DNA from: Citrobacter freundii
GTDB taxonomy: Bacteria; Pseudomonadota; Gammaproteobacteria; Enterobacterales; Enterobacteriaceae
Direction of reading: 5' to 3'
Length of the DNA: 64,000 bases
Assembly: GCF_029717145.1 (NCBI RefSeq)
Contig: NZ_CP099222.1
Coordinates: forward strand, 3,162,001 to 3,226,000
The notes below the pieces were generated by a model, which worked only from the letters and a program-made list of their open reading frames with translations, was not told where the DNA came from and made no database searches. The translations under genes and the position numbers were made by a program. Of this stretch, positions 4,946 through 15,669 are shown one piece after another. Position 1 is the stretch's first letter; every line of letters begins with the position of its first letter.

Positions 4946-6181
4946 ATGGAATTTACCGCCGGACTGATGCCGCTCGAAACGGCACTTTCACAAATGCTGT
5001 CGTCGATTACCCCACTCACCGCCGTTGAAACACTGCCGCTGGTGGAATGCTTTGGTCGCGTGCTGGCAACCGACGTCGTCTCACCGATTGATGTGCCGGG
5101 ATTCGATAACTCGGCAATGGACGGTTACGCGGTGCGTTTAGCGGATTTGCAATCCGGTCTGCCGCTTGCTGTCGCAGGTAAAGCCTTTGCCGGTCAGCCT
5201 TTTCATGGGGAATGGCCTGCGGGAACCTGCATCCGCATTATGACCGGCGCACCGGTGCCCGCCGGCTGCGAAGCCGTGGTGATGCAGGAACAAACAGAAC
5301 AAACTGATGACGGTATTCGTTTTACCGCAGAAGTTCGCGCCGGACAAAATATTCGTCTGTGCGGAGAAGATATTGCTCACGGCGCGGTGGTGTTTGCCGC
5401 AGGGACGCGTCTGACAACCGCTGAGCTCCCGGTGCTGGCCTCGCTCGGTATTGCCGATGTGCAGGTTGTGCGTAAAGTGCGCGTGGCGCTATTTTCTACC
5501 GGTGATGAGCTACAGCTGCCAGGCCAACCGCTGGGTGACGGCCAGATTTATGACACCAACCGCCTGGCCGTACACCTGATGCTGCAACAGCTGGGCTGTG
5601 AGGTCATCAACTTAGGTATTATCCGCGACGATCCTCACGCCCTGCGCGCGGCGTTTATCGAAGCCGACAGTCAGGCCGATGTGGTGATAAGCTCCGGCGG
5701 TGTATCGGTCGGGGAAGCGGACTACACCAAAACCATTCTCGAAGAACTCGGCGAAATTGCCTTCTGGAAACTGGCGATTAAGCCGGGTAAACCGTTCGCG
5801 TTCGGTAAACTGAGCAACAGCTGGTTTTGTGGCCTGCCAGGTAATCCAGTCTCTGCAGCCCTCACCTTCTATCAGCTGGTGCAACCGCTGCTGGCAAAAC
5901 TGAGCGGAAATACCGCCAGCGGATTACCCCCACGCCAGCGCGTACGGACCGCATCACGCCTGAAGAAAACGCCTGGCCGTCTGGATTTCCAGCGCGGCGT
6001 ATTGCAGCGTACGGCTGACGGCGAACTGGAGGTCACCACCACGGGTCATCAGGGCTCGCATATTTTCAGCTCTTTTAGCCTTGGCAACTGCTTTATCGTT
6101 CTGGAACGCGATCGCGGCAACGTTGAAGCCGGAGAATGGGTAGACGTCGAGCCATTTAACGCGCTGTTTGGAGGCCTGTAA
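4946..6181 (+). CDS. moeA: Molybdopterin molybdenumtransferase MoeA
   Basis: MoeA inserts molybdate into adenylylated molybdopterin, the last common step of Mo cofactor synthesis, in the cytosol. The 411-residue protein shows the MoeA N-terminal domain with [14 protein letters not shown] (about residues 50-63), then the MoCF-binding domain with STGDEL and [12 protein letters not shown], and a C-terminal beta domain. The start at 4946 is chosen for the CAGGAG ribosome site eight bases upstream and the family-length product; an in-frame start 21 bases earlier lacks support. The stop codon shares one base with the moeB start (TAATG), so the two are co-translated. Confidence 0.96.
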
Positions 6182-7016: not shown

Positions 7017-7679
7017 TCAGATCGACGTACGTCCAAATGCGCTCTGCCAGTCGTGCGCAAATTTCGCCATGGCGGCATCCACGGCCGGGGAGCTAATTAG
7101 CTGCTGCGCCACATCCAGCGGTAGCGTAATGGCTTCACAGCCAGCTAACAGGCAGTCCAGCGCCTGACGCGGGGTTTTAAAACTGGCAGCCAGTACTTTG
7201 GCGTGCGGCGCGTGCATTTTCAGTAAGTTCTGTAAATCAACCACCGTCTGAATACCATCCCCGCCCTGCGCATCCACGCGGTTAACATACGGCGCAATGT
7301 ATTCGGCCCCTGCCAGCGCAGCTAACAGCCCCTGTGCTGCACTGTAAACCGCGGTGCCCAGCGTTGGGATCCCCTCTTTCTTCAGCAGCTTAATCGCCGC
7401 CAGCCCTTCTGCGGTCACCGGTACCTTCACCACGATATCGGGAATCATTGCCCGCAGTTTATGCGCGTCGCTGACCATGCCCTCAGCGGTCGTTGCCATC
7501 ACCTGAGCAAACAAACGCCCCTGCCCGCCAATCGCGTCATGCAGTTCCGGGAGTAACACCTCCAGCGCCTTTCTACCTGCCGCCACAATACTCGGGTTTG
7601 TGGTGACACCTGCCAGCGGAAAAATACGCGCCAGGGTTTTCACCGCATCCACATCAGACGTATCTAAATAGAGTTCCAT
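7017..7679 (-). CDS. fsaA: Fructose-6-phosphate aldolase 1 (FsaA)
   Basis: This 220-residue class I aldolase of the transaldolase family cleaves fructose 6-phosphate or dihydroxyacetone/hydroxyacetone-type donors to glyceraldehyde 3-phosphate. The Schiff-base lysine is Lys85 in DIVVKVPVT, and the N-terminal [10 protein letters not shown] and GVTTNPS motifs fit FSA rather than full-length transaldolase. It is divergent from pflE across 132 bases that contain the shared CTTTC/GAAAG motif. Established work, as I recall it, places FsaA downstream of the glycyl radical enzyme YbiW in a radical-mediated glycolytic route, which fits this arrangement. Confidence 0.95.
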
Positions 7680-7759
7680 AACCGTTCCTCAAACTGATCG
7701 TTAGCATGAATCAACGGTAGCACGACGAAACCGCGCGGTTAGTTGACTCACGTCAATAT

Positions 7760-7797
7760 AACTTTCATTCGAAAGCAATTTAATCTTTATACGAAAG
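7760..7797. promoter_or_regulatory. Operator-like motif, two CTTTC/GAAAG boxes, before pflE
   Basis: AACTTTCATTCGAAA at 7760-7774 is an inverted repeat CTTTC-N4-GAAAG. A second related box, CTTTATACGAAAG, follows at 7785-7797, about 25 bases further and close to the pflE ribosome site. The 15-base core recurs exactly at 11267-11281 and, reversed, at 14378-14392. It may control fsaA, pflE or both. The regulator is unknown; CTTTC/GAAAG half-sites recall DeoR-family operators (inference). Confidence 0.6.
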
Positions 7798-7811
7798 AAG
7801 AGAGGCCGCTT

Positions 7812-8711
7812 ATGATTTTCAATATCCAGCGCTATTCCACCCACGATGGTCCCGGTATCCGCACGGTAGTCTTCCTTAAGGGATGCTCTCTGGGTTGTCG
7901 CTGGTGCCAGAACCCGGAGAGTCGTGCCCGTACGCAGGATCTGCTGTATGACGCGCGTCTGTGTCTGGAGGGCTGTGACCTGTGTGTTCAGGCTGCGCCT
8001 GACGTCATTCAGCGCGCCCTGAACGGCCTGCTTATTCATCGTGAAAAATTGACCGATAAGTCGCTCACCGCACTGACCCACTGCTGCCCGACCCAGGCGC
8101 TTACCGTCTGTGGTGAAGTAAAAAGCGTAGAGGAGATAATGTCCACCGTGCTGCGCGATAAACCCTTCTACGATCGCAGCGGTGGTGGGGTAACGCTCTC
8201 CGGCGGTGAGCCATTTATGCAGCCGGAGCTGGCTGCGGCGTTGTTCAAAGCCAGCCATGAGGCGGGTATTCATACTGCAGTCGAAACCTGCCTGCACGTA
8301 CCGTGGAAGTACATTGAACCTTCATTAGCGTACATCGATCTGTTTCTTGCCGATTTAAAACACATCGCCGATGTGCCGTTTAAGCAGTGGACTGACGGCA
8401 ACGCCGCTCGCGTGCTGGATAATCTGAAAAAACTGGCCACTGCCGGAAAAAAAATGATTATTCGCGTGCCGCTGATTCAGGGCTTCAATGCCAACGAAGA
8501 AGCCATTAAAGCCATTACCGATTTTGCCGCCGATGAACTTCACGTCGGTGAGATTCATTTTTTGCCCTACCACACCTTGGGCATCAACAAATACCACTTA
8601 CTCAGCCAACCCTACAACGCCCCGGACAAACCGCTGGATGCGCCTGCACTGCTCGAATTTGCCCAGCAGTATGCCAGCCATAAAGGTTTAACCGCGACCC
8701 TACGAGGATAA
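7812..8711 (+). CDS. pflE: Glycyl radical enzyme activase PflE (YbiY), radical SAM
   Basis: This 299-residue radical-SAM enzyme would install the glycyl radical on PflF. The SAM cluster motif CX3CX2C is in [13 protein letters not shown] (about residues 26-33), preceded by THDGPGIRT, and a second cysteine-rich segment (CLEGCDLC ... CCPTQ) marks the extra iron-sulfur sites found in activases other than Pfl[10 protein letters not shown] is the SAM-binding GGE motif. Start 7812 is chosen because AGAGAGG lies upstream and the usual [15 protein letters not shown] start results; an in-frame start at 7743 would run through the operator boxes. pflF follows after five bases. Confidence 0.93.
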
Positions 8712-8716
8712 CCGCC

Positions 8717-11149
8717 ATGACCACACTGAAACTGGATACACTCAGCGACCGCATCAACGCACACAAAACAGCCCTGATCCACATTGTGAAGCCGCCGGTG
8801 TGTACCGAGCGCGCCCAGCACTATACCGAGATGTATCAACAGCATCTGGACAAACCGATCCCGGTACGCCGCGCGCTGGCGCTGGCGCATCATCTGGCGG
8901 AACGGACTATCTGGATCAAACATGACGAGTTGATTATCGGTAATCAGGCAAGCGAAGTCCGCGCCGCACCAATCTTCCCGGAATACACCGTATCGTGGAT
9001 TGAAAAAGAGATCGACGATTTGGCCGACCGGCCAGGAGCCGGCTTTGCGGTCAGCGAAGAGAACAAGCGCGTACTGCATGAAATCTGCCCGTGGTGGCGC
9101 GGTCAGACCGTACAGGATCGCTGCTACGGCATGTTTACCGACGAACAAAAAGGCCTGCTGGAAACCGGCATCATCAAAGCCGAAGGCAACATGACTTCCG
9201 GCGATGCGCACCTGGCGGTGAACTTCCCGCTACTGCTGGAAAAAGGCCTTGATGGTCTGCGTCATAAAGTCGACGAGCGTCGCTCGCGCATTAACCTGAC
9301 CTGCCTGGACGATCTCCATGGCGATCAGTTCCTGAAAGCCATTGATATCGTACTGGATGCCGTCAGCCTGCATATCGAACGTTTCGCCAGCCTGGCACGT
9401 AAAATGGCAGCAACTGAAACCCGTGAAAGCCGTCGCGATGAGCTGCTGGCAATGGCAGAAAACTGCGATGTCATCGCCCACGAACCGCCAAAAACCTTCT
9501 GGCAGGCACTGCAACTGTGCTATTTCATCCAGCTTATCCTGCAAATCGAATCGAACGGTCACTCGGTGTCGTTTGGCCGCATGGACCAGTATCTCTACCC
9601 GTTCTATCGTCGCGACGTGGAGCTGAACCAGACGCTGGACCGCGAGCACGCCATTGAGCTGCTGCACAGCTGCTGGTTGAAGCTGCTGGAAGTGAACAAA
9701 ATCCGCTCCGGCTCCCACTCGAAGGCATCCGCGGGCAGCCCGCTGTATCAAAACGTCACTATCGGTGGTCAGAATCTGGTCAACGGCCAGCCAATGGACG
9801 CGGTCAATCCGCTCTCCTATGCCATTCTGGAGTCCTGCGGTCGTCTGCGTTCAACCCAGCCGAATCTCAGCGTGCGTTATCACGCCGGGATGAGTAACGA
9901 TTTCCTTGATGCCTGCGTGCAGGTCATTCGCTGCGGCTTTGGCATGCCGGCGTTTAACAACGATGAAATTGTTATCCCGGAATTCATTAAGCTGGGTATT
10001 GAGCCGCAGGATGCCTACGACTACGCAGCCATTGGCTGCATCGAAACCGCCGTGGGCGGGAAATGGGGTTACCGCTGCACTGGCATGAGCTTTATTAATT
10101 TTGCCCGTGTGATGCTGGCCGCGCTGGAAGGTGGTCGCGATGCCACCAGCGGTAAGGTGTTCCTGCCGCAGGAAAAGGCGCTCTCTGCGGGTAACTTCCA
10201 CAACTTCGACGAGGTGATGACCGCCTGGGATACGCAGATCCGCTACTACACGCGTAAATCCATCGAGATTGAGTATGTGGTTGATACCATGCTGGAAGAA
10301 AACGTCCACGACATCCTGTGCTCTGCGCTGGTGGATGATTGCATTGAGCGGGCGAAGAGCATTAAACAGGGCGGCGCAAAATATGACTGGGTATCCGGTT
10401 TGCAGGTCGGGATTGCTAACCTTGGCAACAGTCTGGCTGCCGTGAAAAAGCTGGTCTTCGATCAGGGTGTTATCGGTCAGCAGCAGCTGGCGGCAGCCCT
10501 GGCAGATGACTTTGCAGGCCTCACGCATGAACAATTACGCCAGCGTCTGATCAACGGCGCACCGAAGTACGGTAACGATGATGACAGCGTCGACACCCTG
10601 CTGGCCCGCGCCTACCAGACCTATATCGACGAACTGAAGCAATATCATAATCCGCGTTACGGTCGCGGTCCGATCGGTGGTAACTATTACGCCGGAACCT
10701 CCTCCATCTCGGCAAACGTACCGTTTGGCGCGGCAACAATGGCAACGCCGGATGGCCGTAAAGCGCATACCCCACTGGCAGAAGGCGCCAGCCCGGCCTC
10801 CGGTACCGACCATCTCGGTCCAACGGCGGTGATTGGCTCAGTGGGCAAGTTGCCGACCGGCGCGATCCTCGGCGGGGTGCTGTTAAACCAGAAGCTGAAT
10901 CCGGCTACACTGGAAAATGAATCCGATAAGCAAAAGTTAATGATCCTGCTGCGTACCTTCTTTGAAGAGCACAAAGGCTGGCATATTCAGTACAACATCG
11001 TCTCTCGTGAAACGCTGCTGGAAGCGAAAAAACACCCAGATCAGTACCGTGACCTGGTGGTGCGTGTAGCTGGCTACTCCGCCTTCTTCACTGCCCTGTC
11101 TCCGGATGCGCAGGACGATATCATCGCCCGAACAGAGCATATGCTGTAA
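8717..11149 (+). CDS. pflF: Glycyl radical enzyme PflF (YbiW)
   Basis: This 810-residue protein is a PFL-like glycyl radical enzyme. The thiyl cysteine is Cys441 in AAIGCIETAVGG, and the radical glycine is Gly786 in RVAGYSAFF near the C-terminus. The GCxE signature is shared with the dehydratase-type enzymes, not with pyruvate formate-lyase (which has a CC pair), so the old name is misleading. Established work, as I recall it, showed that E. coli YbiW opens 1,5-anhydroglucitol 6-phosphate to 1-deoxyfructose 6-phosphate, which FsaA then splits; the adjacent fsaA supports that role here. It acts only under anoxic conditions. A BIME follows the stop. Confidence 0.92.
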   Translation: MTTLKLDTLSDRINAHKTALIHIVKPPVCTERAQHYTEMYQQHLDKPIPVRRALALAHHLAERTIWIKHDELIIGNQASEVRAAPIFPEYTVSWIEKEIDDLADRPGAGFAVSEENKRVLHEICPWWRGQTVQDRCYGMFTDEQKGLLETGIIKAEGNMTSGDAHLAVNFPLLLEKGLDGLRHKVDERRSRINLTCLDDLHGDQFLKAIDIVLDAVSLHIERFASLARKMAATETRESRRDELLAMAENCDVIAHEPPKTFWQALQLCYFIQLILQIESNGHSVSFGRMDQYLYPFYRRDVELNQTLDREHAIELLHSCWLKLLEVNKIRSGSHSKASAGSPLYQNVTIGGQNLVNGQPMDAVNPLSYAILESCGRLRSTQPNLSVRYHAGMSNDFLDACVQVIRCGFGMPAFNNDEIVIPEFIKLGIEPQDAYDYAAIGCIETAVGGKWGYRCTGMSFINFARVMLAALEGGRDATSGKVFLPQEKALSAGNFHNFDEVMTAWDTQIRYYTRKSIEIEYVVDTMLEENVHDILCSALVDDCIERAKSIKQGGAKYDWVSGLQVGIANLGNSLAAVKKLVFDQGVIGQQQLAAALADDFAGLTHEQLRQRLINGAPKYGNDDDSVDTLLARAYQTYIDELKQYHNPRYGRGPIGGNYYAGTSSISANVPFGAATMATPDGRKAHTPLAEGASPASGTDHLGPTAVIGSVGKLPTGAILGGVLLNQKLNPATLENESDKQKLMILLRTFFEEHKGWHIQYNIVSRETLLEAKKHPDQYRDLVVRVAGYSAFFTALSPDAQDDIIARTEHML

Positions 11150-11154
11150 TTTCC

Positions 11155-11240
11155 CGTAGGCCGGATAAGATGTTTTTGCGTCGCTATCCGGCAGCGATAC
11201 CGCCTCAATGCCGGATGGCGCTGACGCTTATCCGGCCTAC
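11155..11240. repeat. BIME: paired REP palindromes
   Basis: GTAGGCCGGATAAG...CTATCCGGCA and TGCCGGATGGCGCTGACGC...TTATCCGGCCTAC form two REP units in opposite orientation between pflF and ybiV. They probably end or protect the pflEF transcript and separate it from ybiV. Confidence 0.88.
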
Positions 11241-11266
11241 AACTGTGCTGTAATAGACGACGGGGA

Positions 11267-11281
11267 AACTTTCATTCGAAA
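11267..11281. promoter_or_regulatory. Operator-like motif before ybiV
   Basis: AACTTTCATTCGAAA, identical over 15 bases to the site before pflE and followed by a similar A/T stretch. It lies 68 bases before the ybiV start, where an operator or upstream promoter element would be expected. Function is inferred only from recurrence at 7760 and 14378. Confidence 0.6.
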
Positions 11282-11349
11282 TTAAATTTGTGCTACAGGT
11301 CACATTGTTATTAGAATGTTTCTGGTTGCAGTGAAAGCCAGGAGCATAT

Positions 11350-12165
11350 ATGACCATCAACGTTATCGTCACCGACATGGACGGCACTTTTCTCGACGAT
11401 GCCAAGCAGTACGATCGCCAGCGATTTATGGCGCAGTATCAGCAATTGAAAAAACGAGATATTGAATTTGTCGTGGCCAGCGGCAACCAGTATTACCAGT
11501 TGATCTCCTTTTTCCCTGAACTCAAAGACGAAATCTCTTTTGTCGCAGAGAACGGCGCCCTGGTGTATGAACACGGCAAACAACTTTTTCATGGTGAACT
11601 TACCCGCCACGAATCCCGTATTGTCATCGGCGAGTTATTGAAGGATAAGCAGCTGAATTTTGTCGCCTGCGGACTGCAAAGCGCCTACATCAGCGAAAAT
11701 GCCCCGGAGGCGTTTGTGGCGCTGATGTCAAAACACTACCATCGCCTGAAACCGGTTAAGGACTTTCAGGACATCGATGATGTGCTGTTCAAGTTCTCAC
11801 TGAATTTACCTGATGGGCAAATCCCGTTGGTTATTGACCATTTGCATACAGCCCTCGACGGTATCATGAAGCCGGTGACCAGCGGGTTTGGCTTTATCGA
11901 TCTGATAATCCCAGGTTTACATAAAGCCAACGGTATCAGCCGCCTGCTTAAACGCTGGAACCTGTCACCGCAGAATGTAGTTGCCATTGGTGATAGCGGC
12001 AACGATGCGGAAATGCTAAAAATGGCACACTATTCCTTTGCCATGGCTAATGCCGCCGACAGCATTAAAGCAATTGCCCGCTACCAGACCGATGACAACA
12101 ATCATCAGGGCGCACTGAACGTGATTCAGGCCGTACTCGACAACACCTCACCGTTTTACGGCTGA
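11350..12165 (+). CDS. ybiV: Sugar phosphatase YbiV (HAD, Cof type)
   Basis: This 271-residue HAD-superfamily phosphatase acts on sugar phosphates. The nucleophile loop is DMDGTF (residues 9-14, Asp9 nucleophile and Asp11 acid/base), the motif II serine/threonine region is VVASGNQ, the lysine is in GLHKANG, and the metal-binding motif IV is [12 protein letters not shown] large C2 cap lies in the middle. An AGGAG ribosome site precedes the ATG. It has its own upstream region with the shared 15-base motif, which ties it to the fsaA/pflEF locus. It converges on the M48 gene across a strong hairpin. Confidence 0.94.
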
Positions 12166-12168
12166 CAT

Positions 12169-12199
12169 AAACCCGGAGTCCGTACTCCGGGTTTTACAT
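12169..12199. terminator. Bidirectional terminator between ybiV and the M48 gene
   Basis: AAACCCGGAGT at 12169-12179 pairs with ACTCCGGGTTT at 12184-12194, an 11-base perfect stem with a four-base loop, with T or A runs on either side. It can serve both convergent transcripts. Confidence 0.85.
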
Positions 12200-12204
12200 C
12201 CCCA

Positions 12205-14136
12205 TCAGAAATCCTCCAGCTCAGCGCGAGCGTGGGCAGAAACAATGTATTGCCCGATAAGCGTCAGCAGCGCTTGCGCATCCAGCTTAACCTTTCCATT
12301 TTCCTGCTGGCGTAACACATCGCCGGCCACCACGATTGCAACCGCATGTTTTCGCGGGTTAAAGCGAATAACCTGCATAAACCGTTTGGTGGTGAGATTC
12401 GGTTGATAATCATCGTCCATGAAGAATTCAATCGTCATCGAACTGGAAATAATCGTCAGGTTATAGTCGGCAATATTTTTTAGCGGTAGCGGCTGAGGCA
12501 ACCACGGGCTGGCGATCGCGTCCTGCGTCAGCACCAGCAGCGGCTGTCGCGTTCGTCGTAAGGTGATAATGCCCAACAGCCCAAAGGCAATTCCGCCGAA
12601 AGGAATCAACACGCACCAAGGGCTGACCGTTTTGAACAGCAGCAAAGCCCCACCGCCCAACAGCATTACCAGGCCCGCAATTATCATATACCATGCTACT
12701 TTCGCACTCATCCACAGCGCCACCGAGCCTGTTGCCAGCCCGGCTTCGGCTTCAAGTGTCTGGCGATAGACCTTACGTTGCGCGGTGATTTTTGTCGACA
12801 GGGTGCGTGAAAGCGATAGGCTCAACACATCCGCATCGGCGAATAGACCACCGAAAAAAGCGTTATCACCTGCCGCAACCGGGCGTAAAGCCCGCGCCAG
12901 AAGTTCACTATCGAGCGGTACTGTCAGTGCCGCAATACGTTCACGCGTCGTCGGATGGCTATCCATTGGATGCGCTATTTCATTATCGAGACTGTTCTGC
13001 AGCGCAAACGGTCCGATTTTCTGTAACGCGACAAGCAGATCGACAAGCCAGTTGGTGCTGGTCACACGCCCATGCAAAAGCTCCCCCAGAAATCGGGAAA
13101 CCGGAACATCCAGCACCGATATCCGTAGTAACGCCGACGCGAACGCCGCTGGAGATGAGACTTTTGCACCCATATTATCCGCCGCATATTCACGGATCCT
13201 GGCCCAGTCACTGACCGCTTCATGGAAGGTCTGCAAAAACCATAACCCCATATCCAGCGACGGGCGCAGTACGATGCGGTCAAGCCATGAAAACCCCTGT
13301 GAGCTGTTCGCCATCTGTTCAAGACTGTTTTGCATCCCGGCATACAGAGGAACAAAACGCAGGCTGTACTGCGTATCCTCGCCGGTAAAATGTCCCAGCT
13401 CATGGCCAATCACCGCTGCCGCTTCCGCGTCATCCAGCAATGCCATATAGGTTAGCGGCAAGTAGAGCGTATTACCCGTGAGTCGTTTGCCCTCTTCAAT
13501 TTGTACGGTATTGGCGGTGACAAAGAAGCCGTCAAAAAATCCGACCACGATATTGTCAGGCAGCGTCAACTCTGCACGCCGGGTGACGTCACGTATCCAT
13601 TGCCAGAGCGCCGGGTTATTCGCGACGGTGACATTCACCCCGTAAATCTCCGTATCGTCAGGTTGAAAGAGAGCGAAACAGCGTCTGATGGAAGTCAGAC
13701 TTTTTAATAGCATCCAGAGGATCGCACCGACGGCGACCAGGATTACCGCCGCCAGTTTGAACCCACCCGCCCCGCCAAAATGCGACATCAGCCAGGTAAC
13801 TTCCGATAACGCCAGACAGATCACCGCCAGTCCGCAGGTCACAATTTCAGCGGCCATCATAAAAGGCAACAGGCGACGGCAACGCGTAAATGTGCGAATC
13901 AAGGTGCTCTGGGAATGGCGCGAAGCGCGGGCGCTGGTTGTACATAGCCCCACTGCCGCCCCCACAACAAGCAAAGCCGCACCGCCAAGCGCTATCGCCA
14001 ACATCGCTAGCGTCTGTCGGAGCAGCCCCTCAGCATCGCCTTCGAGAACATCGGCTACCCGCCAGTACTGCCATAGCGCATAACTAAGAATGCAGACTGG
14101 AACAGTGAAGAGATGAAGCGTGCCTTTTCTTTCCAT
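12205..14136 (-). CDS. Membrane-bound M48 family zinc metalloprotease
   Basis: I recognise the family but not a named gene. The 643-residue protein carries the zinc motif HELGH (His245, Glu246, His249) and the third ligand region REYAAD (Glu316, Asp320), followed by HPTTRERI near residue 395, all typical of peptidase M48. Four hydrophobic segments precede the catalytic domain (about 3-23, 43-65, 90-115, 125-145) and two follow it (about 480-502, 506-525), so it is a polytopic membrane protein with a C-terminal domain of about 115 residues of unknown fold. ATG at 14136 is preceded by AAGGA; a TTG seven codons earlier has no ribosome site. E. coli K-12 lacks a gene here. It is divergent from ybiU and may share its operator. 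Confidence 0.82.
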   Translation of the reverse strand: MERKGTLHLFTVPVCILSYALWQYWRVADVLEGDAEGLLRQTLAMLAIALGGAALLVVGAAVGLCTTSARASRHSQSTLIRTFTRCRRLLPFMMAAEIVTCGLAVICLALSEVTWLMSHFGGAGGFKLAAVILVAVGAILWMLLKSLTSIRRCFALFQPDDTEIYGVNVTVANNPALWQWIRDVTRRAELTLPDNIVVGFFDGFFVTANTVQIEEGKRLTGNTLYLPLTYMALLDDAEAAAVIGHELGHFTGEDTQYSLRFVPLYAGMQNSLEQMANSSQGFSWLDRIVLRPSLDMGLWFLQTFHEAVSDWARIREYAADNMGAKVSSPAAFASALLRISVLDVPVSRFLGELLHGRVTSTNWLVDLLVALQKIGPFALQNSLDNEIAHPMDSHPTTRERIAALTVPLDSELLARALRPVAAGDNAFFGGLFADADVLSLSLSRTLSTKITAQRKVYRQTLEAEAGLATGSVALWMSAKVAWYMIIAGLVMLLGGGALLLFKTVSPWCVLIPFGGIAFGLLGIITLRRTRQPLLVLTQDAIASPWLPQPLPLKNIADYNLTIISSSMTIEFFMDDDYQPNLTTKRFMQVIRFNPRKHAVAIVVAGDVLRQQENGKVKLDAQALLTLIGQYIVSAHARAELEDF

Positions 14137-14325
14137 TGAAAAATATCCTTTTATCAACCGGCACCGCCCTCTTAGTGCTGGCCTTTAGCGGGCAAAATCT
14201 CCCAGAGCAAAGAAGTATAGATAGTCCCACTTGTTGCCGGTTAACGTTTTTATCCACCAGCCCCCATTTTATCGATAGGTCAGCCCAACGCTCACTTACC
14301 CACCCGCGTGCCTTACTGACTTTTA

Positions 14326-14370
14326 AACTTGCATTAACTTATTTTTAACTTATATTATCATTTGCAAGTT
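14326..14370. promoter_or_regulatory. Inverted repeat and tandem TTAACTTAT boxes before ybiU
   Basis: AACTTGCA at 14326-14333 is mirrored by TGCAAGTT at 14363-14370. Between them TTAACTTAT occurs twice, at 14334 and 14345. The stretch is very A/T-rich and contains TATATTATC, a likely promoter region for ybiU, the divergent protease gene, or both. No known regulator consensus was recognised. Confidence 0.4.
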
Positions 14371-14377
14371 AAATTAG

Positions 14378-14392
14378 TTTCGAATGAAAGTT
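14378..14392. promoter_or_regulatory. Operator-like motif before ybiU (reverse orientation)
   Basis: TTTCGAATGAAAGTT is the exact reverse complement of the 15-base motif at 7760 and 11267. It ends six bases before the ybiU ribosome site (GAGGTGG), a position where a bound protein would block transcription or initiation. The same intergenic region serves the divergent M48 gene. Confidence 0.6.
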
Positions 14393-14406: not shown

Positions 14407-15669
14407 ATGGCTCTTACTTTTACCAGCGACACGTTGCCTGCCGATCACAAAGCGGCAATCCGTCAGATGAAGCGGGAACTGCGGGCGCAGCTTGGCGACG
14501 TCCAGCAGATCTTCAGCCAGCTTAGCGAGACCATCGCCACCCGCGTGGCGGAGATCAACGCGCTTAAAGCACAGAGTGACGCGGTCTGGCCGGTACTGCC
14601 ATACGCCGATATTCAGGCGGGCACCGTCACCGCTGCGCAGCGAGAACAGATTAAACGTCGTGGATGTGCGGTCATTAAGGGCCATTTCCCCCGCGAGCAG
14701 GCGCTGGGTTGGGATCGCTCAATGCTCGATTATCTCGACCGCAACCGCTTTGACGAGGTCTACAAAGGACCGGGGGACAATTTTTTCGGCACCCTGAGTG
14801 CATCGCGTCCTGAAATCTTTCCGATCTACTGGTCACAGGCACAAATGCAGGCCCGCCAGAGTGAAGAGATGGCTAACGCACAGTCGTTTCTTAATCGCCT
14901 GTGGACTTTTGAAAGCGAAGGTAAGCAGTGGTTTAACCCGGACGTCAGCGTGATCTATCCTGACCGTATTCGTCGCCGCCCGCCGGGAACCACCTCCAAA
15001 GGGCTCGGCGCACATACAGATTCCGGCGCACTGGAGCGCTGGTTGCTTCCGGCATATCAGCGCGTTTTTGCTTCTGTTTTTAACGGCAATCTGGCCGATT
15101 ACGATCCGTGGCAGGCGGCGCATCGCACTGACGTCGAAGAGTATACGGTCGATAACACCACCAAATGTTCGGTGTTTCGCACCTTCCAGGGCTGGACGGC
15201 GCTTTCCGATATGTTACCGGGCCAGGGGTTGCTACATGTGGTTCCCATTCCTGAAGCGATGGCTTATGTGCTGTTACGCCCACTGCTGGATGATGTTCCG
15301 GAAGATGAGCTGTGCGGCGTCGCACCAGGAAGAGTGCTGCCGGTTTCAGCGCAATGGCATCCCTTACTCATCGAGGCGTTAACCAGCATTCCGCAACTGG
15401 AAGCCGGCGATTCCGTATGGTGGCATTGTGATGTAATCCACGCCGTTGCGCCGGTGGAGAACCAACAAGGCTGGGGCAACGTGATGTATATTCCCGCCGC
15501 ACCAATATGCGAAAAAAATCTCGCCTATGCCCACAAGGTGAAGGCCGCGCTGGAGAAAGGTGCCTCGCCGGGGGATTTCCCGCGTGAAGACTATGAAACA
15601 AACTGGGAAGGACGCTTTACCCTGGGGGATTTGAATATCCACGGTAAGCGCGCGCTGGGGATTCTTTAA
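14407..15669 (+). CDS. ybiU: YbiU, DUF1479 putative Fe(II)/2-oxoglutarate-type oxygenase
   Basis: This 420-residue protein belongs to DUF1479, a family with the double-stranded beta-helix oxygenase fold. GLGAHTDSGALERW gives an HxD pair (metal ligands) and WWHCDVIHAVAP a distal histidine, consistent with a non-haem iron dioxygenase. The reaction is unknown to me. Start 14407 is chosen for GAGGTGG just upstream and for the MALTFTSDTLPADHK N-terminus shared with K-12; an in-frame start 45 bases earlier would cover the operator. The gene stands alone, divergent from the M48 protease, and converges on ybiT across an ERIC element. Confidence 0.88.
   Translation: MALTFTSDTLPADHKAAIRQMKRELRAQLGDVQQIFSQLSETIATRVAEINALKAQSDAVWPVLPYADIQAGTVTAAQREQIKRRGCAVIKGHFPREQALGWDRSMLDYLDRNRFDEVYKGPGDNFFGTLSASRPEIFPIYWSQAQMQARQSEEMANAQSFLNRLWTFESEGKQWFNPDVSVIYPDRIRRRPPGTTSKGLGAHTDSGALERWLLPAYQRVFASVFNGNLADYDPWQAAHRTDVEEYTVDNTTKCSVFRTFQGWTALSDMLPGQGLLHVVPIPEAMAYVLLRPLLDDVPEDELCGVAPGRVLPVSAQWHPLLIEALTSIPQLEAGDSVWWHCDVIHAVAPVENQQGWGNVMYIPAAPICEKNLAYAHKVKAALEKGASPGDFPREDYETNWEGRFTLGDLNIHGKRALGIL

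Follow-up and report, generated by a model that had tools for sequence, protein, structure and literature searches.

What does it mean that three separate transcription units of a Citrobacter freundii genome carry the same 15 bases in their promoter regions? In the stretch analyzed here, which is 64,000 nucleotides long and is called the window throughout (RefSeq assembly GCF_029717145.1, contig NZ_CP099222.1, positions 3,162,001 to 3,226,000), the 15-mer AACTTTCATTCGAAA occurs without a mismatch at 7760-7774 and 11267-11281 on the forward strand, and at 14378-14392 on the reverse strand; it precedes the divergent fsaA and ybiY-ybiW genes (the latter also named pflE and pflF), the sugar phosphatase gene ybiV, and ybiU. 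These copies very probably represent operators of the DeoR-family regulator YciT, which would bind their palindromic core and exert a repression that is relieved by a sugar phosphate. Earlier work had already described this regulator, its palindrome, and two of the three promoters; the proposed operator before ybiU and the proposed sugar signal are added here.

The 15-mer in the window and in the genome

A preliminary description of this locus, made from the sequence, had noticed the three intergenic copies, and this observation holds for the window, where no further match with up to two mismatches was found, and for the whole 4.74 Mb Citrobacter genome, where the exact 15-mer is not scattered but occurs three times, only at the promoters of ybiY/fsaA, ybiV and ybiU. 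With up to two mismatches allowed, the genome contains 12 matches, compared to 5 for a reversed-pattern control. In line with a Citrobacter genome, its YbiY protein shares 100% identity with YbiY of Citrobacter gillenii UMG736. The looser pattern CTTTC-N4-GAAAG, on which the same description had seen the motif built, is found with two mismatches at chance level (22 observed vs. 25.9 expected) and was dropped as uninformative; therefore only the full box is informative, and the claim rests on it. As calculated from coordinates, the 14-base box at ybiY leaves 36 bp to the ybiY ATG on one side and 82 bp to the fsaA start on the other; its counterparts end 67 bp before ybiV and 16 bp before ybiU. 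In the multi-locus comparison below, ybiU box distances were counted from codon 2.

Conservation across the Enterobacteriaceae

The comparison included 82 loci: 80 named Enterobacteriaceae loci (the best 80 of 342 by YbiY), Escherichia coli K-12, and the window. At ybiY, the box CTTTCATTCGAAAG was present with at most two mismatches in all 82 loci, ending 34-38 bp before the start codon. At ybiV, 72 of 73 loci carried the box with at most three mismatches, and the best sites were located 66-71 bp before the gene in 71 of 73; at ybiU, it was found with at most three mismatches in all 69 loci with a proper ybiU. The shared element proposed in the preliminary description is kept in related genera: of the 70 loci with readable sequence upstream of all three genes, 68 have a box at each. 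E. coli K-12 has the exact 15-mer at ybiY/fsaA and at ybiU, and a version with one mismatch at ybiV. Across 224 sites, the inner arms TTTC and GAAA are near-invariant while the outermost bases vary (C in 191 and G in 160 of the 224). In 15 of the 82 loci, including those of Klebsiella and Raoultella, no fsaA gene was found, and the ybiY box persists there.

YciT as the probable regulator

In E. coli, YciT has been mapped by chromatin immunoprecipitation with exonuclease treatment (ChIP-exo) to 49 sites, 23 of them in regulatory regions (Gao et al., 2021; PMC8464067). According to the accessible portion of that study, ChIP-exo peaks occur upstream of "operon ybiUVWY" and of fsaA; the named targets include ybiO, ybiV, and ybiY; the published motif is palindromic; and deletion of yciT alters the expression of ybiV, ybiY, and fsaA in K-12 (PMC8464067). 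In the accessible part of a 2025 preprint, YciT was enriched at the ybiYW promoter by DNA chromatography and mass spectrometry, and this promoter was active anaerobically, with an unnamed activator binding upstream (PMC12132413). Reg-Seq mass spectrometry, as far as that report is accessible, assigns phnA/yjdM to YciT (PMC7567609). The statement in the preliminary description that no regulator had been published for this gene set was wrong, since YciT is mapped at ybiV and ybiY/fsaA in one of these sources and at ybiYW in another; its expectation of a single regulator with a DeoR-type operator is borne out.

The genome that contains the window encodes a YciT protein (C1:2536889-2537629) with 83% identity to its K-12 counterpart; it passes the NCBIfam model NF040887 (499.5 bits vs. 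a cut-off of 450) and combines the HTH_DeoR domain with a DeoRC sensor domain in Pfam. In 52 YciT sequences, residues 29-42, the recognition-helix stretch, have a mean identity to K-12 of 0.87; the means are lower for residues 1-60 (0.63) and for the sensor (0.66). Among 198 genomes of the family, yciT was found in 83, ybiY in 68, and ybiU in 68; yciT is present in all 68 ybiY genomes (within 5 kb of ybiY in 27) and in 67 of the 68 ybiU genomes, and the sole exception (G119) has no box before ybiU. For genomes of at least 3 Mb, the numbers with both genes, with the target only, with yciT only, and with neither were 68, 0, 15, and 41 for ybiY, and 67, 1, 16, and 40 for ybiU. Boxes with at most one mismatch average 2.72 per genome with yciT (control 0.96), and 0.61 per genome of at least 3 Mb without it (control 1.05).

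The linked loci point in the same direction. Among 20 of the 27 genomes with yciT near ybiY, 17 loci carry a box with at most two mismatches before ybiY, and 12 adjoin osmB-yciH-pyrF, the neighbors of yciT in K-12. In nine genomes, yciT is located directly beside ybiU (G020, G031, G068, G075, G106, G130, G146, G171, and G196); six of eight such loci that were compared have a box with at most two mismatches before ybiU, as do 15 of 25 divergent or unlinked ybiU genes in yciT-containing genomes. Outside the family, where 13 of the 23 matched genomes were compared, ybiY-ybiW accompanies yciT in 8 of the 13 loci, each with at least one intergenic box with at most two mismatches. One genome (G145, locus L188) has a one-mismatch box between yciT and fsaA. 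In K-12, the region upstream of ybiO, a ChIP-exo target, retains intact CTTTC-N4-GAAAG arms, and a box with two mismatches is found upstream of phnA/yjdM, two names for one gene.

Some observations on individual loci may be added. The K-12 ybiO box (L209:7571-7584) lies in the middle of CTCCCTTTCACCCGAAAGGGAG, an extended inverted repeat without mismatches, which could fold as a hairpin as well. In L178 (G130), ybiU at 5178-5927 is a partial match (residues 168-418, with one stop), and the one-mismatch box upstream is kept. Two YciT homologs each are encoded by G017 (L177), G186 (L183), and G163, and the more divergent copy adjoins ybiY-ybiW. In L254-L256 (outside family f2), a YciT homolog occurs with neither ybiY nor ybiW in its vicinity; it is directly preceded by a HAD/5'-nucleotidase-like gene in L254, and in L256 a box-like site is located about 50 bp upstream of the yciT frame. 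For K-12, autoregulation of yciT was considered and is unsupported; the yciT upstream region contains no box within three mismatches.

Counterevidence and alternative explanations

Several observations weigh against YciT as the sugar-phosphate-responsive repressor of these promoters. Binding in Citrobacter is by extension from E. coli K-12, and the genomes in the co-occurrence counts are related rather than independent, so that Fisher significance is overstated. In the multi-locus comparison, ybiV of L034 lacks a box, and L033 was excluded from the ybiU count since it has only a ybiU fragment whose box is the ybiV box; it is counted here on the negative side. At the cut-offs used, seven yciT genomes have neither ybiY nor ybiU. 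A box with at most two mismatches is missing from 3 of the 20 ybiY-yciT loci (L179, L181, and L201) and from 10 of the 25 divergent or unlinked ybiU genes in yciT-containing genomes; the best sites in the ybiU-yciT loci L190 and L196 have three mismatches; and 5 of the 13 yciT loci outside the family have no ybiY-ybiW nearby. In K-12, no box within three mismatches was found at cusF or ompX, both named YciT targets. Finally, the phenotype of the yciT deletion is osmotic, and growth on the carbon sources examined was, according to the accessible text, not significantly impaired (PMC8464067).

The osmotic growth phenotype, together with the RefSeq name "dual regulator", gives some room to the explanation that the main role of YciT here is activation, or a general response to osmotic stress, and not repression relieved by a sugar phosphate. 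This is rather unlikely, as the ybiY boxes overlap or adjoin the predicted core promoter and the ybiU box follows the predicted start, the conserved target genes encode sugar-phosphate enzymes, and the DeoRC sensor domain is present in YciT. Much less probable is the use of these boxes in Citrobacter by another DeoR-family paralog or another regulator altogether, with YciT binding in E. coli being secondary: although YciT matches several other DeoR-family models, all below cut-off, and fewer than half of its ChIP-exo sites (23 of 49) fall into regulatory regions (PMC8464067), it is yciT that is linked with ybiY-ybiW and with ybiU in different genera and families, near-perfect boxes exceed the control only in genomes with yciT, and no box is present at ybiU in the single ybiU genome that lacks yciT. 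That the three 15-mers, identical and within 6.7 kb of each other, merely reflect a duplicated promoter segment or a repeat without a regulatory role can practically be dismissed; the flanks diverge beyond the box, the best ybiV sites differ in orientation between genera (43 of 73 one way, 30 the other), and nearly all loci keep the box at a position set by the respective start codon.

Promoter architecture

The coordinates of the promoter elements and genes are collected in Table 1. Upstream of ybiY, the palindrome TTGAY-N4-RTCAA is present in all 82 loci, compared to none of 73 ybiV and none of 70 ybiU promoters; it is termed FNR-like by reference to the FNR consensus TTGAT-N4-ATCAA, from which the window site differs by two mismatches. 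Exactly one such match occurs across the whole length of each of the 82 loci; therefore, a lone match in a moeB promoter is one of the same ybiY sites. The spacing between the FNR-like site and the box is fixed in 81 of 82 loci, and in the window it fits the -10 hexamer TTTAAT, with a predicted start. The conserved TTTAAT in -10 register would center the FNR-like site on -41.5 and have the YciT box span -29 to -16. FNR is a candidate for the activator that the preprint detected upstream of ybiYW, and a shift of ~20 bp in the start predicted by the preprint would bring its footprint into line with the proposed anatomy (PMC12132413). No account tying FNR to the ybiYW promoter was found in the accessible literature searched for it (FNR/ybiY/ChIP; ybiW/FNR/anaerobic).

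The weaker second copy that the preliminary description had placed near 7785 is real and occupies 7784-7797. In a position weight matrix (PWM) scan of the ybiY loci, an offset of +22 is the top secondary peak (z 4.1); in the window, the second box scores 8.4 vs. 21.5 for box 1. A weaker secondary peak occurs at -22 for ybiU (z 3.2), and the ybiV loci show no secondary PWM peak at 22. The similarity among bases downstream of the copies, also pointed out in the preliminary description, is explained in part: at ybiY, they include the likely -10 hexamer TTTAAT.

At ybiV, a palindrome of the form TGTGn-N6-nCACA follows the box in 57 of 72 promoters; it is called CRP-like on the basis of the CRP consensus. 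Between ybiW and ybiV, the window also contains, at 11156-11240, an inverted repeat with 14-nt perfect arms, GTAGGCCGGATAAG, that resembles repetitive extragenic palindromes (REP) or bacterial interspersed mosaic elements (BIME).

At ybiU, the direct repeat TTAAC-N6-TTAAC was found in 62 of 70 promoters vs. none of 338 controls (ybiY 82, ybiV 73, fsaA 67, moeB 76, ybiT 20, and ldtB 20), and it is absent from all eight divergent ybiU upstream regions listed. It is called ArcA-like after the 11-bp-phased direct repeats of the ArcA consensus. The preliminary description had allowed for control of the M48 protease by the same box, which is unsupported: the box lies about 240 bp from the M48 gene, compared to 16 bp from ybiU. 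Among the 70 loci that hold both ybiV and ybiU, a full-length M48 gene stands between them only in the window and in L011 (a remnant is found in L012), and the ybiU box is kept in genomes without an adjacent M48 gene, K-12 included; therefore the box belongs to ybiU, and the M48 protease was rejected as a YciT target.

Table 1. Genes and regulatory elements of the fsaA-ybiU region, in window coordinates.
Feature	Position	Strand	Basis
fsaA, fructose-6-phosphate aldolase	7017..7679	-	Pfam TAL_FSA
FNR-like palindrome TTGACTCACGTCAA, predicted class II activator site, centered at -41.5 of the ybiYW promoter	7743..7756	.	Sequence and conservation
YciT box 1 CTTTCATTCGAAAG, located between the predicted -35 and -10 elements of ybiY (about -29 to -16), common to divergent fsaA	7762..7775	+	Exact match, 82/82 loci, K-12 ChIP-exo
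Predicted ybiYW -10 element TTTAAT, start predicted near 7791	7779..7784	+	Sequence, conservation; inferred
Weaker secondary YciT box TCTTTATACGAAAG, offset by +22 bp from box 1	7784..7797	+	PWM secondary peak
ybiY (pflE), radical SAM activase	7812..8711	+	Pfam
ybiW (pflF), glycyl radical enzyme	8717..11149	+	Pfam PFL-like and Gly_radical; TIGR01774
YciT box 2 CTTTCATTCGAAAT, before ybiV	11269..11282	+	Exact match, conservation
CRP-like palindrome TGTGCTACAGGTCACA, downstream of box 2	11289..11304	.	TGTGn-N6-nCACA; conservation
ybiV, HAD-type sugar phosphatase	11350..12165	+	Pfam Hydrolase_3
M48 peptidase-like gene between ybiV and ybiU, lineage-specific	12205..14136	-	Pfam
Predicted ybiU promoter: TTGCAT 14329-14334, 18 bp, TATTAT 14353-14358	14329..14358	+	Sequence, conservation; inferred
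ArcA-like direct repeat TTAAC-N6-TTAAC within the predicted ybiU -35/-10 spacer	14334..14349	+	Conservation
YciT box 3 (GTTTCGAATGAAAG on +), beyond the point where ybiU transcription is predicted to start	14377..14390	-	Exact match, conservation
ybiU, DUF1479/Gig2-like, putative Fe(II)/2-oxoglutarate dioxygenase	14407..15669	+	Pfam PF07350

Proposed mechanism and physiological role

Judged from sequence, a YciT dimer would bind the CTTTCATTCGAAAG palindrome, assisted at ybiY by the weaker box two helical turns away. The box would sit between the FNR-like activator site and the likely -10 element at ybiYW, just upstream of the likely -35 element at ybiV, and just downstream of the likely start at ybiU, where it may likewise act as an operator; these positions would fit repression relieved by a phosphorylated sugar. 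DeoR-type proteins usually respond to sugar phosphates; given this habit and the DeoRC domain in YciT, the protein is best read as a repressor that would be released by a phosphate of the pathway. The likely signal would be 1,5-anhydroglucitol-6-phosphate or 1-deoxyfructose-6-phosphate, because YbiW converts the former to the latter and FsaA is able to split ketose phosphates such as 1-deoxyfructose-6-phosphate. The YbiW reaction, an anaerobic cleavage, is summarized in the accessible part of a recent review (PMC12441222, citing Ma et al., 2024, JACS).

The YbiU protein has no NCBIfam match, and a divergent relative also weakly matches PhyH; solved relatives are 2dbi, 2csg, and 4rgk. Its HxD...H metal triad (H202-x-D204, H339, and H344, numbered from codon 2) is invariant in 104 sequences, which indicates that YbiU is probably an oxygen-dependent enzyme. 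In six genomes (G020, G031, G068, G106, G146, and G171), ybiU is tied to yciT without ybiY, and this suggests that YbiU may act on the same signal or substrate as the YbiW pathway. Selected yciT and ybiU neighbors were scanned for a transporter or kinase without a clear substrate lead; transport genes, including a beta-glucoside phosphotransferase system, occur near yciT or ybiU in single loci.

A speculative and rather doubtful extension would make YciT a 1,5-anhydroglucitol regulator whose targets are split by oxygen: FNR-driven YbiW and FsaA would work anaerobically, YbiU, behind its ArcA-like repeats, would oxidize 1,5-anhydroglucitol or its 6-phosphate at C1 to glucose or glucose phosphate, and YbiV would adjust or detoxify the phosphate pool. 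If this were true, genomes with ybiU-yciT but without ybiYW would be aerobic-only users. Apart from this extension, the three boxes would give YciT, described as an osmolarity regulator with 49 sites, a small conserved core regulon consisting of fsaA, ybiYW, ybiV, and ybiU, and would tie the uncharacterized YbiU to a known sugar pathway. According to the accessible part of the review, a probiotic against 1,5-anhydroglucitol is unlikely to work without an enzyme that metabolizes this compound aerobically (PMC12441222); YbiU would be directly relevant to this call.

Comparison with known systems

The closest precedent is YciT in E. coli K-12, with the same regulator, the same ybiV and ybiY/fsaA promoters, and a palindromic motif; in their accessible parts, Gao et al. 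hint at an uncharacterized pathway (PMC8464067), and the preprint at an anaerobic role (PMC12132413). In contrast to these accounts, the present analysis adds an operator that would lie directly before ybiU, the second box at 22 bp, the FNR-like and ArcA-like sites, the linkage of yciT across genera, and the proposed sugar signal, none of which was found in the literature searched (few subscription papers, no supplements). The radical-mediated 1,5-anhydroglucitol pathway shares YbiW as the key enzyme; unlike here, regulation and YbiU are not mentioned in the accessible part of its review (PMC12441222).

The DeoR-family sugar-phosphate repressors AgaR, SrlR, UlaR, and GlpR have the HTH_DeoR domain and the DeoRC sensor in common with YciT, whose matches to the AgaR, SrlR, and UlaR models score below the respective cut-offs; in contrast, YciT has its own NCBIfam model and the CTTTC-N4-GAAAG palindrome. 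YciT is also encoded away from these targets in K-12 and in the window genome, unlike these four repressors.

Additional boxes

The extra near-perfect boxes of three genomes yielded no coherent further target. Outside the window, a one-mismatch box, CTTTCATTCGAAGG, is located at L241:6593 (C1:3110592), some 120 bp upstream of a gene for a molybdopterin oxidoreductase, with a DmsC gene nearby (DMSO-reductase-like); two other genomes of the genus each contain a single copy of CTTTCATTCGAAGG.

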